Assembly (NCBI RefSeq): GCF_006274605.1
Contig: NZ_CP040846.1
Location: 1,247,041 to 1,311,040 of the forward strand
Direction of reading: 5' to 3'
From: Thermococcus indicus
GTDB taxonomy: Archaea > Methanobacteriota_B > Thermococci > Thermococcales > Thermococcaceae
DNA: 64,000 nucleotides
The notes under the pieces are model-generated. The model saw only the letters and a program-made list of their open reading frames with translations. It did not search any database and was not told the origin of the DNA. Positions 45,234 through 50,033 of the stretch are shown piece by piece; position 1 is the first letter of the stretch; each line of letters starts with the position of its first letter. Both the position numbers and the translations under genes were made by a program.

Positions 45234-45987
<754 letters not shown>

Positions 45988-46860
45988 CTTCCCACCCCTG
46001 AGATTTTCAATTTCTGCCTTTCCTCCCAGCATGCATCCAATAATCCCTACTTAAGATTTTGGGAAGGCTTTTCTGCCGGAGTGGGCCGCGGTGGCGGCAA
46101 TACCCTTAAATAATTTCCCGCCGCCCTATGTGATGTGACCGCCATGTCGGGCGTCCCCAGCTTTGAGTTTGGAATAGAGACAATCGCCCTCGCCTCGCTG
46201 GTGGTTCTCCTCTCTGGAATACTGGCGATGCTCATCAGCCGGAAGACGAAGTTCCCCTACACGCCGCTCCTCGTTCTTCTTGGAGTCCTCGTGGGGCCGG
46301 TTCTGACCCTGATCCTCCCCCAGACGGCCAGGTTGCTCTTCTACTACGTCCGCGCCTTTGGGCTCTTCCTCCTCTTCGCGGCGGGATTTGACCTCAAGCT
46401 CCACGTTTTGAAGAGGCACAAGCTGGTGATAGGTCTCCTCGACACGGTTGGCCTCCTGGGAACTGCCATCTTAGCCGGCTGGTTTTTCTCGTGGGCCTTC
46501 GGCGTTCCCTTCCCGGTCGGCTTCCTCTTCGGGGCGGTGGTTTCGGGCACCGACCCGGCGACGCTGATACCGCTCTTCCAGGAGCATGAAGTCCCTAAGG
46601 ATATGGAGACGATAATCATCACCGAGGCCATATTCAACGGCCCCCTCGCGATAATACTCACGATGGTGGCCCTGTTCCTCATAATCCCGGAGATTCCCGG
46701 CTACGCCCCGGTCGAGCCCGTCTTGCAAGGTGCCGGTCTCTACGCTGCTGCCATCTTCTACTTCCTCTACCAGATATTCGTCTCCGCACTCATTGGGGCG
46801 GTTATAGCCTACGTAGCATACCAGGCCATAGTACGATTCAGCCTCTACAGAAGCTCTTAC

Positions 46861-48325
46861 TTTTTTCTTTTGAAAGCCTCGTCCTTTAGGGCGGGGATGC
46901 AGTAAACAACCCAACGGCCATTAAACAGGAAAGCAATCTTTTTTAAAGCCTAAAATTAATACCATACTTTGGAATGAAGCGAACAATAACAGTAAAACTC
47001 CAGCCGTCAAAGGAGCAGGCAAAAATCCTCTTCGAGTTAGCCGACACTGGAGCCAAAGTCTGGAACAGAGTAAACTTTCTCAGACGACAACAATACTTCA
47101 AAGAGCAAATCGTGGACTTCAACACAACTGAGAAGACTGTTTACGAGGAGTTTAAGCGAGAAATCGGTTCGGCAACCGTTCAACAAATAGCGAGAAAAAA
47201 CGCTGAAGCTTGGCGTTCGTTCTTCTCACTCCTCCGCAAAAAGCGGAATGGTGAACTTTCCTCTTGGCTCAAGCCAAAACCACCGAACTACTTGAAGGAA
47301 GAGGAGAGGAGAAAGCCCTTAATCGTCCTGAGAAACGACCAATACAAGATTGAGGGAAACAAACTAATTCTAAAAGGCCTCGGCAAGTTCAAACGCTTGG
47401 AAATCCAATTCAAGGGAAGAATACACCTGAAGGGCAAGCAAGGACGCTTAGAAATCACTTACGACCCCGTAAAGCGGAAGTGGTATGCTCACGTGAGTTT
47501 CACGGTGGAGGAAAAACTTGAAAATAATGAATGGGTGAGCGTTCCGAGAACTCCGAAAGGAAACCTTTCTGCTGGAATTGATTTAGGAGTGAATAACTTA
47601 ATGGCCGTTTATGTCGAGAATGGAGAAGGCTTCCTTGTGAATGGAAGACCGCTCAAGAGCATTGACTTCTACTGGCGGGGGAGGATTGCCGAGTACCAGT
47701 CAAAACTCAACAAATCCGGGGCTGAGACGAGTAGAAAACTCAAAAGAATGCACGAGAAGGCCAAACTTCAGGCAAAGCACTACATCAATACCGTCGTGAG
47801 ACAAACGGTTAGGAGGCTTTACGAGTTGGGAGTTAGCAGAATTGTCGTTGGTTATCCAAAGGGGATAGCTCGGAATTCTGACAAGGGTAAAAAGCAGAAT
47901 TTTCTCCTCTCTCATGTCTGGCGGTTTAATACCGTGATTAAACGCCTGACTGAGGTTGCTGAGGAGTATGGTATTCGAGTTTTGGTTGTTGGTGAGGCTT
48001 TGACCTCGAAAACTTGTCCCGTTTGCGGGAAGCCCCATGAGGGGGCTCGCTTTGTTAGGGGATTATTTAAGTGTCCCGCAACGGGGCTTGTGTTTAATGC
48101 AGATTTAGTTGGTGCTTTCAACATTTTGAGAAAGGTTGTGGAAACTATAACCCCGAACTTGGGTGGTTTGTATGCTCAAGGGAGGGGTAACTGGCCTAAG
48201 ACCGGGCCAGAGGGGTTGAAAACCCACTTTTTAGTGGGTTTGAATGAGACCCCTCAAACCTCCCCGTCAATGGCAAGGGGTTAATTCGTTGGAACCCTCG
48301 CCCTTCAGGGCGGGGAGGAGGTCAG
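46861..48325 (+). mobile_element. IS200/IS605-group element carrying only tnpB
   Basis: The 1465-bp element is inserted after TTAC (46857-46860) and ends in TCAG (48322-48325). Both sides are fixed by restoration of the antiporter reading frame. No target duplication is seen, as expected for this group. The left end has a hairpin (GCCTC...GGGCGGGG, 46877-46896). The right end has the related hairpin CCTCGCCC-TTCA-GGGCGGGG (48296-48315). No tnpA is present, so movement would need a TnpA supplied elsewhere. Confidence 0.88.
46974..48284 (+). CDS. tnpB: TnpB RNA-guided nuclease (IS605 OrfB type)
   Basis: A 436-residue protein. The N-terminal helix-turn-helix and wedge part has TVKLQPSKEQAKILFELAD. 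The RuvC active site has GIDLGVNNLMAVYV (Asp), VLVVGEALTSKTCPVCG (Glu) and FNADLVGAFNIL (Asp), so the catalytic triad is intact. Zinc ribbon: CPVC is present, but the second pair is CPATG, keeping one Cys. TnpB proteins use a right-end RNA (omega RNA) to cut DNA next to the TAM at the left end of the element. Here the TAM would be TTAC. Full length, no breaks. Confidence 0.9.
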   Translation: MKRTITVKLQPSKEQAKILFELADTGAKVWNRVNFLRRQQYFKEQIVDFNTTEKTVYEEFKREIGSATVQQIARKNAEAWRSFFSLLRKKRNGELSSWLKPKPPNYLKEEERRKPLIVLRNDQYKIEGNKLILKGLGKFKRLEIQFKGRIHLKGKQGRLEITYDPVKRKWYAHVSFTVEEKLENNEWVSVPRTPKGNLSAGIDLGVNNLMAVYVENGEGFLVNGRPLKSIDFYWRGRIAEYQSKLNKSGAETSRKLKRMHEKAKLQAKHYINTVVRQTVRRLYELGVSRIVVGYPKGIARNSDKGKKQNFLLSHVWRFNTVIKRLTEVAEEYGIRVLVVGEALTSKTCPVCGKPHEGARFVRGLFKCPATGLVFNADLVGAFNILRKVVETITPNLGGLYAQGRGNWPKTGPEGLKTHFLVGLNETPQTSPSMARG

Positions 48326-48345
48326 ACCCAGATACTCGGTCTGGC
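48221..48345 (+). ncRNA. Candidate omega (re)RNA with guide for TnpB
   Basis: Omega RNAs arise from the 3' end of tnpB and run past the right end of the element. Here AACCCAC-TTTTTA-GTGGGTT (48221-48240) and CCTCGCCC-TTCA-GGGCGGGG (48296-48315) form hairpins, followed by TCAG and then the flank ACCCAGATACTCGGTCTGGC as guide (48326-48345). The boundaries are inferred. The guide matches the uninterrupted antiporter sequence after TTAC. Confidence 0.5.
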
Positions 48346-48891
48346 GATGGCCTTCGGCGGATACGTTGCCGGGGAGTTCATCGGTGCCTCTGGATTCCTC
48401 GTCGTCACAATAATCGGCCTCATCCTCGGGAATCACCGCGATTTCTTCAAGAGGGAGAGCAGCAAGGTGGACGATGCCGTGGAGAGGAACATGGAGTTCA
48501 ACGACGTCCTCTCGACCTTCTCGGTGATATTCATCTTCGTGCTCCTCGGCGCAAGCCTCGACCTCACGGACCTGCAGTGGGGGACGATAGCTACCTCGCT
48601 CCTGTGGCGCTGTTCGTGATATTCGTCGCCAGACCGCTGGCTTCCCTCGTTGTTCTTCCCTTCACGGGCTTCAAACGGTTCCTCTTCATCTCCCTGGAGG
48701 GACCGAAGGGTGCCGTAGCGGCGAGCATGGCGATACTGCCGGTCGTCCTCGGCAGGGTCTACAACAGTCCCGAGATGATTGCGTGGGGAGAGCTGATACT
48801 GAGCGCCGGGCTGATGACGGTTCTGCTCTCGATGCTGCTGGAGTCGGCATGGGTATCGCTCCTCAGGGAGAGGCTCCTGGATTAGTCTTAC

Positions 48892-48972: not shown

Positions 48973-49839
48973 TCAGAGGAAGCGCTCCATGAAATCCAGC
49001 ACGGCTAAGGCCCTGTACGTGTTCTGGAAGTTCGAGATGCCGAGCTCCAGAGAGCGCCTGAAGCCGCCGTTGGGATTCTGCAGCTGGCGTATGAACCAGA
49101 CGTGCCTCCTTGGGCAGCTTGGGGTTTCACCTTGAAGTTCCAGCCCCCTGGCCGCGTAGAAGGTCGGTTCAAGGTACGGGGGCAGGCTGTACGGAACCTC
49201 CGTGAAGCCGCCCCAGTCGCCGCAGAGCTCGCAGTTCCGGAAGTGAGGACTCTTAGGCGGCCTGTAGCCCAGGGTGCGGAGCGTGTAGAGCGCCTGGTAG
49301 GTCATCGTCGTCGTGGGGCCCTTGACGCCGTAACCGTTGCCGTTTCTGAACTTCATAACGAATGCCCTTATGGCTTCCTTTTCGTCGGGGCTGAACTCAT
49401 ATCCTATGGCCTTGAACGCTTTGACCACCCAGTACGTCGCCTCTAAGGGTGTCGCCGTTCCAAATTCCTCGCTTCCGCCGAGACCGACGGCGAATTTGCC
49501 CTCCAGTGGGCTGTACTTGATAAAAACGATGTCCAGATGCTCCATCGCAACGTCCTTAGCTCCAAGTATGGCCAGGCCTTCGAGGGCCATCGCTATCGCA
49601 ACAACCGCCGTCTGGGGCTGTATCGCCCTCTCCAGGAACCCGATTGTTTTTTCCTTCTCCGAAATCTCGAGCCTGAGAAGGTCGTAAATCTTGACCGCGT
49701 AATACGTATCGTTGACGTTGGTATCGTTGAGGACGCTGACGAAGCAGTAACCGCCGTCCTCGTGGCGTCTTTCCTCTATGTACCTGATGAGCGAATCAGC
49801 GTTAATGAACCGTCCAATTTCATAAAGCTTCGAGCCCAT
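48973..49839 (-). CDS. Prenyltransferase/squalene-cyclase-repeat protein under a fluoride riboswitch
   Basis: A 288-residue protein with the alpha/alpha toroid repeats of prenyltransferase beta subunits and terpenoid cyclases: HEDGGYCFVSV, LEATYWVVKAFKAIGY, GNGYGVKGPTTTMTYQALYTLRTLGY, EPTFYAARGLELQG and NPNGGFRRSLELGISNFQNTYRALAVLDF. Some zinc-type residues (CELCGDWGG, EVPYSL) are present, but a full catalytic D/C/H triad cannot be confirmed by eye. A typical terpene-cyclase DxDD is not seen. RBS TTGAGGAGGCGGTAGG precedes ATG 49839. The leader contains a fluoride riboswitch, so it should be expressed under fluoride stress. The biochemical role is unknown. Confidence 0.8.
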   Translation of the reverse strand: MGSKLYEIGRFINADSLIRYIEERRHEDGGYCFVSVLNDTNVNDTYYAVKIYDLLRLEISEKEKTIGFLERAIQPQTAVVAIAMALEGLAILGAKDVAMEHLDIVFIKYSPLEGKFAVGLGGSEEFGTATPLEATYWVVKAFKAIGYEFSPDEKEAIRAFVMKFRNGNGYGVKGPTTTMTYQALYTLRTLGYRPPKSPHFRNCELCGDWGGFTEVPYSLPPYLEPTFYAARGLELQGETPSCPRRHVWFIRQLQNPNGGFRRSLELGISNFQNTYRALAVLDFMERFL

Positions 49840-49870
49840 CCTACCGCCTCCTCAAGATTTTGACGGAGAA

Positions 49871-49930
49871 CAGGCGTCATCAGCCCTTGGCGGGCGGTTC
49901 GGCTCGAAGCCCGGGCGGACGCCATCGCCC
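49871..49930 (-). promoter_or_regulatory. Fluoride riboswitch (crcB motif)
   Basis: Read on the minus strand from 49930 it starts GGGCGATGGCGTCCGCCC and ends GCCCGCCAAGGGCTGATGACGCCTG. It carries the conserved GGCGATG and CTGATG, the pseudoknot GGGCG/CGCCC, the stem GGCGTC/GACGCC and the GCCC/GGGC hairpin of the crcB RNA class. An extra small hairpin (GGCTTCGAGCC) is inserted before GAAC. A TATA (TTTTTAAT, 49951-49958) puts the transcription start near 49930. The gene at 48973-49839 starts 31 bases downstream. Confidence 0.85.
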
Positions 49931-50033
49931 ACGTGACCCTTCAGATGGTGATTAAAAACCTTTGTGGTGCAACGGGCTAATCACCTAAAAGCTTAATAAG
50001 CTGGAGCGGGATTTTTTAACCCGTGATGAAATC

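Follow-up and report, generated by a model that had tools for sequence, protein, structure and literature searches.

In translational riboswitches that sequester the Shine-Dalgarno (SD) sequence, binding of the ligand frees the ribosome-binding site. In Thermococcus kodakarensis, the fluoride riboswitch was reportedly used as an inducible system by Speed et al. in 2018. The primary transcriptome of this archaeon, published in 2014, included an 86-nt crcB RNA that was "surprisingly" located before TK0513 and not before TK0514 (crcB), the latter having a separate start site (PMC4247193). According to a citation in PMC8241225, a fluoride response of T. kodakarensis has also been reported.

Here we describe the fluoride riboswitch of Thermococcus indicus, located in a 64,000-nt stretch of genomic DNA (the window) ahead of a gene for a PF00432 toroid protein that we name tor. 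The gene TK0513 is most likely the tor orthologue; the riboswitches of the two species belong to the same aptamer class, above the cut-off, and most likely to the same locus (TK0513/TK0514). The author of an earlier note on this DNA, who knew of no such member of the class, had overlooked the 2014 report of one before a gene other than crcB. The present analysis goes beyond that report by describing an insertion that is specific to the order and antisense to the start codons, and by a clade-wide survey, and the T. indicus locus differs in that crcB is displaced. As in SD-sequestering translational riboswitches, the ligand would free the ribosome-binding site in the tor leader, but the sequestering strand sits inside the aptamer and its target runs through codon 4, so that the coding sequence would be part of the switch. 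The CrcB/Fluc operons with DUF190 have a counterpart in the crcB-DUF190 pair of the Thermococcales, where, however, the riboswitch heads tor (often with DUF6062, coiled-coil and RHH genes) instead of crcB.

The fluoride riboswitch and its pairing with tor

In the covariance search that the earlier note had proposed, RF01734 (the Rfam Fluoride model) matched 49938..49864 on the minus strand over its full length (1-64) with an E-value of 2.6e-10 and 48.3 bits, well over the gathering cut-off of 34 bits. A search of the T. indicus genome found no further copy. The main features are as follows.

49951..49958, minus strand: TATA-like box TTTTTAAT, read from the sequence, centred 25 nt ahead of P1
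49864..49938, minus strand: fluoride riboswitch aptamer RF01734 (cmscan, 48.3 bits)
49913..49930, minus strand: P1 hairpin and loop GGGCGATGGCGTCCGCCC, the loop carrying the 5' pseudoknot strand GGCGUC (49923-49918)
49873..49886, minus strand: P3 3' strand and 3' pseudoknot strand GACGCC (49878-49873), GGGCTGATGACGCC
48973..49839, minus strand: tor, encoding a 288-aa alpha/alpha-toroid protein (PF00432, E-value 2.4e-11; AF2/Foldseek)

Both crcB-class motifs quoted in the note were present on the minus strand (49930-49913 and 49886-49873), and its TATA 25 bases ahead was found at 49958-49951; its coordinates pointed to the right locus but were about 7 nt too short on either side. The pseudoknot strand of the P1 loop pairs with the 3' strand, and this pairing covaries across the order, being GGCGUC/GACGCC in 73 leaders and GGCGCC/GGCGCC in 7. 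A TATA-like box 23-27 nt ahead of P1 was observed in 72 of 81 leaders compared with 13% of shuffles, and the transcript of the window is predicted to start at approximately 49930. The gap between the aptamer match and the tor start is 24 nt. We infer that the window copy binds fluoride.

Among 94 Thermococcales genomes surveyed, 88 carried the fluoride riboswitch and 90 carried tor, and in all 88 riboswitch-bearing genomes one copy was located 10-44 nt ahead of the tor start. Nearly all homologues in other Thermococcales, which the earlier note had suggested checking, are riboswitch-led as well. The exceptions were of different kinds. In G080, the riboswitch is gone and tor is broken while crcB is retained, a joint loss that speaks for the proposed control of tor. 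G076 has a broken tor still preceded by the riboswitch. In G012, tor is intact, crcB has no match and the aptamer is reduced to the 3' end GATGGCGCCTATTCT, a decapitated riboswitch. The pairing of riboswitch and tor is real, clade-wide and in part known since 2014. Since tor is the constant partner of the riboswitch in 88 genomes, a role of Tor in the fluoride response, as the earlier note had proposed for the toroid protein, is the best reading. Outside the Thermococcales (loci L152 and L153), the fluoride riboswitch was seen ahead of a dynamin-like GTPase gene in G099 and directly ahead of crcB in G110.

Antisense between the aptamer and the start of tor

Between P1 and P3, the aptamers of tor leaders contain an insertion that is complementary to the start region of the gene, a feature that the earlier note had missed. 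The elements concerned are these.

49901..49912, minus strand: order-specific aptamer insertion GGGCUUCGAGCC(C), a P2 hairpin in the aptamer fold
49909-49901, minus strand: CUUCGAGCC, the part of the insertion antisense to tor codons 2-4
49893..49898, minus strand: ACCGCC, which overlaps the 5' strand of P3 and is the complement of GGCGGU in the extended SD
49843..49851, minus strand: extended SD GGAGGCGGU, read from the sequence and conserved in most leaders
49828..49839, minus strand: AUGGGCUCGAAG, start codon plus codons 2-4, the predicted pairing partner of the insertion when fluoride is absent

We consider it likely that these elements form a fluoride riboswitch of the translational ON type that controls tor, with the switching direction and in vivo mechanism that we infer here. 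Without fluoride, the aptamer-internal CUUCGAGCC..GAACCGCC would pair at the start of tor, both with GGCGGU in the extended SD and with GGCUCGAAG in codons 2-4, and the SD and AUG would be hidden by this start helix. With fluoride, the pseudoknot, P2 and P3 would hold the antisense segment within the aptamer, the start site would be freed and Tor would be made.

The SD and start of tor have a complementary segment within the aptamer, pairing with which excludes the aptamer fold, and CUUCGAGCC agrees with the reverse complement of GGCUCGAAG at every base. The 9-bp perfect match of the window was reached by 51 out of 20,000 shuffles. Across 81 leaders, the insertion/start duplex had a mean energy of -29.0 kcal/mol compared with -17.2 kcal/mol for shuffled insertions, and pairing was kept in 72-78 of the leaders at nine of ten positions, the tenth being a one-base gap in 30 leaders. 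Several observations count against the helix. The changes in it were mostly one-sided (G-U) with few double compensations, and L129 and L130 kept the codons while losing most of the helix, contrary to a strict rule. In addition, the score of the start window was equalled or exceeded by another 26-nt gene window in 30 of the 81 leaders; GC-rich segments pair easily.

The strongest support for the proposed start antisense comes from constraint on the tor coding sequence. Synonymous entropy was computed on 84 distinct tor genes, covering 109 four- and six-fold and 73 two-fold codon columns. Codons 2 and 3 had the lowest values of the 109 columns (0.00 and 0.26 bits; median 1.83), codon 2 always being GGC where it encodes Gly and codon 3 being TCG in 79 out of 82. 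Codon 4 had the lowest entropy of the 73 two-fold columns and was always AAG where it encodes Lys, while codon 5 was ordinary (1.63 bits); the synonymous constraint stops where the complementarity stops. The insertion and the ATGGGC codons co-occurred in 78 of 78 leaders, and the three lineages without the insertion, which share only about 70% identity, all lacked the ATGGGC codons too: insertion and codons were lost together three times. Constraint and co-loss are what selection on complementarity would leave, the few double compensations notwithstanding.

A rather unlikely alternative is that the switch hides only the SD, for example by the CUCC..GGAG hairpin predicted in the window (49868-49848), or acts at transcription, and that codons 2-4 are conserved for initiation efficiency or the N-terminal peptide. 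Early codons are indeed often specially constrained, but the constraint on codons 2-4 lies far above that of any other tor codon, halts exactly at the end of the complementarity and is gone where the insertion is missing, and many leaders have no CUCC beside the SD.

The energetics fit the antisense model. At 80 °C, the predicted probability of the start helix exceeded 0.5 in all 58 leaders tested. The sequestered state surpassed the aptamer fold in stability by a mean of 8.4 kcal/mol, the latter being scored without pseudoknot, Mg and fluoride. These energies are rough; they would be compatible with a leader that is OFF by default and that fluoride could switch. A cruder test, in which the pseudoknot strands were blocked during folding, brought the mean accessibility of the SD at 37 °C from 0.36 to just 0.44, and in view of this small change it was replaced by the explicit two-state comparison.

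Fifteen Thermococcales genomes contained a second, shorter riboswitch copy (L062-L076), which at the 14 loci with an assignable gene precedes HyfC-like (formate-hydrogenlyase-type) membrane genes. The tor-type insertion is absent from these hyf-like riboswitches. Their start region GACGCC-nnUGAA-CCCGGAA instead has its antisense partner on the opposite side of the aptamer, in UUCCGGG-cga(u/a)-GGCGUC, with duplex energies of -25 to -28 kcal/mol in the 15 leaders, and in 12 of the 14 leaders scannable over at least 120 gene windows the start window was unmatched by any other. As the antisense pairing involves different sequences, the same design thus appears twice, and the hyf-like form would be an independent solution. 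In many of these second riboswitches, GAAGG replaces the usual GAUGG of the aptamer loop.

In the Pyrococcus-like leaders L082-L088, a covarying stem with the core AUGArCCGAAACCGGyAACGGrAGUAGG was seen approximately 20-75 nt upstream of the aptamer. It had no match in Rfam, near-copies (CTGAACCGAAACCGG..) are scattered through other Thermococcales genomes, and it may be a transposon-derived RNA.

The tor neighbourhood and the displaced crcB

In most relatives, the gene order is riboswitch, tor, DUF6062 (PF19538), a short coiled coil, RHH (PF01402), crcB and DUF190, and we propose that tor was ancestrally clustered with the genes for DUF6062, the RHH protein, CrcB and DUF190. All 55 DUF6062 genes of the order are directly behind tor. 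In 73 genomes, crcB follows tor on the same strand at a distance of up to about 3 kb; the gap is 47-98 nt in 13 of the genomes (87 nt in G023), and in these a riboswitch-led transcript likely includes crcB. The window is arranged differently.

46135..48885, plus strand: broken cation/proton antiporter gene (tblastn with the intact L115 antiporter; the pieces flank TnpB)
46974..48284, plus strand: open reading frame for a TnpB-like transposon protein inside the antiporter gene
45616..46032, minus strand: crcB fluoride channel gene (PF02537, E-value 6.8e-28), the true start perhaps internal
45234..45629, minus strand: DUF190 (P-II-like) gene overlapping crcB (PF02641, E-value 4.2e-38)

The DUF6062, coiled-coil and RHH genes are missing, and the opposed antiporter gene fills their place between tor and crcB, so the riboswitch-led transcript does not extend to crcB. 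The three middle genes were lost, and it is owing to this loss that tor is the single downstream gene in the window. The earlier note was correct on that single gene and on "not a channel" as far as the window transcript goes, but it missed both the loss and the ancestral link to crcB.

A few further features of the neighbourhood were recorded. Besides the TnpB split, the antiporter gene probably has a frameshift near 48604. Weak HgcC (RF00062) matches below the cut-off were seen at 48190-48337 (the TnpB 3' end) and 46835-46919 (near the upstream end of the element). The DUF6062 proteins of L096, L115 and L079 contain CxxC and C..H motifs in pairs, reminiscent of a metal-binding protein. A Foldseek search of the PDB with the DUF6062 AF2 model gave no match below an E-value of 0.9, and on plasmids DUF6062 had a single distant match, in Thermomicrobium roseum, with no fluoride context.

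The close spacing of tor and crcB on one strand, and the riboswitch immediately before crcB in G110, would suit a scheme in which crcB is the selected target and tor a passenger or leader cistron, relevant only through read-through into crcB. We regard this as improbable. In the Pyrococcus-like genomes of group g3, tor, coiled coil and RHH follow the riboswitch although crcB-DUF190 is elsewhere without one, and no second riboswitch before crcB was found at an E-value of at most 1 in the window or in the genomes with crcB elsewhere. An opposed gene parts tor and crcB in the window, TK0514 has its own transcription start (PMC4247193), and Tor is highly conserved, identity reaching 97% or more in 111 of its 288 columns.

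Tor as a candidate fluoride effector

The note had described a downstream gene with prenyltransferase/squalene-cyclase repeats, and the open reading frame was there: PF00432 scored 44 bits against a cut-off of 26.5. The AlphaFold2 model (pLDDT 90.4, pTM 0.90) is an alpha/alpha-toroid, for which the top Foldseek matches were squalene-hopene cyclases and FTase/RabGGTase beta subunits, mostly with TM-scores of 0.6-0.7 but at only 11-18% identity (Foldseek E-value 8e-6). Tor thus shares the fold and the GG[FY] repeats of the PF00432 family but is without its recognisable catalytic motifs. The DxDD acid motif and QW repeats of class II terpene/squalene cyclases, as well as DDTA, were found in 0 of 84 Tor proteins, and the zinc-ligand DxC of prenyltransferase beta subunits in only 3, the window Tor not among them, although H246 is conserved. 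Therefore, we do not file Tor as a terpene cyclase or protein prenyltransferase. Tor orthologues were found only in the Thermococcales: there were none beyond the order in the class and phylum genomes, genome_contigs and plasmids searched, and the only other matches were weak PF00432-like ones inside it.

Approximately half of the conserved Tor residues are polar. The loop at about 118-128 (GLGGSEEFG) is conserved yet of low confidence in the model, as would be expected of a mobile lid. Our tentative guess is that the toroid cavity receives a polar ligand, which Tor would either bind or act on as an enzyme, and that Tor is not a terpene cyclase. That Tor is a prenyltransferase or terpene cyclase altering membrane lipids or isoprenoids under fluoride, a change that the note had tentatively suggested, is compatible with its PF00432 membership and best structural matches, the fold alone not deciding against it, but is made very doubtful by the missing DxDD, DDTA and QW in all 84 proteins, the absence of DxC in 81, the low structural identity and the polar conservation.

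Under the translational switch that we prefer, Tor would be the constant effector in the fluoride response of the Thermococcales and the first to be made. The wider proposal, that an expression platform within the open reading frame arose in two ways (tor and hyf-like) and that Tor is a new fluoride effector, regulated even without a linked crcB, we hold to be evenly balanced; as far as could be checked, an antisense platform embedded in an open reading frame is undescribed. If true, an uncharacterised conserved protein would be the main fluoride-induced product of a whole archaeal order, which would indicate fluoride defence beyond export. It would also mean an archaeal riboswitch with its expression platform in the coding sequence and the N-terminal codons fixed accordingly, and users of the switch as an inducible system would have to keep the first codons, as these would be part of the platform.
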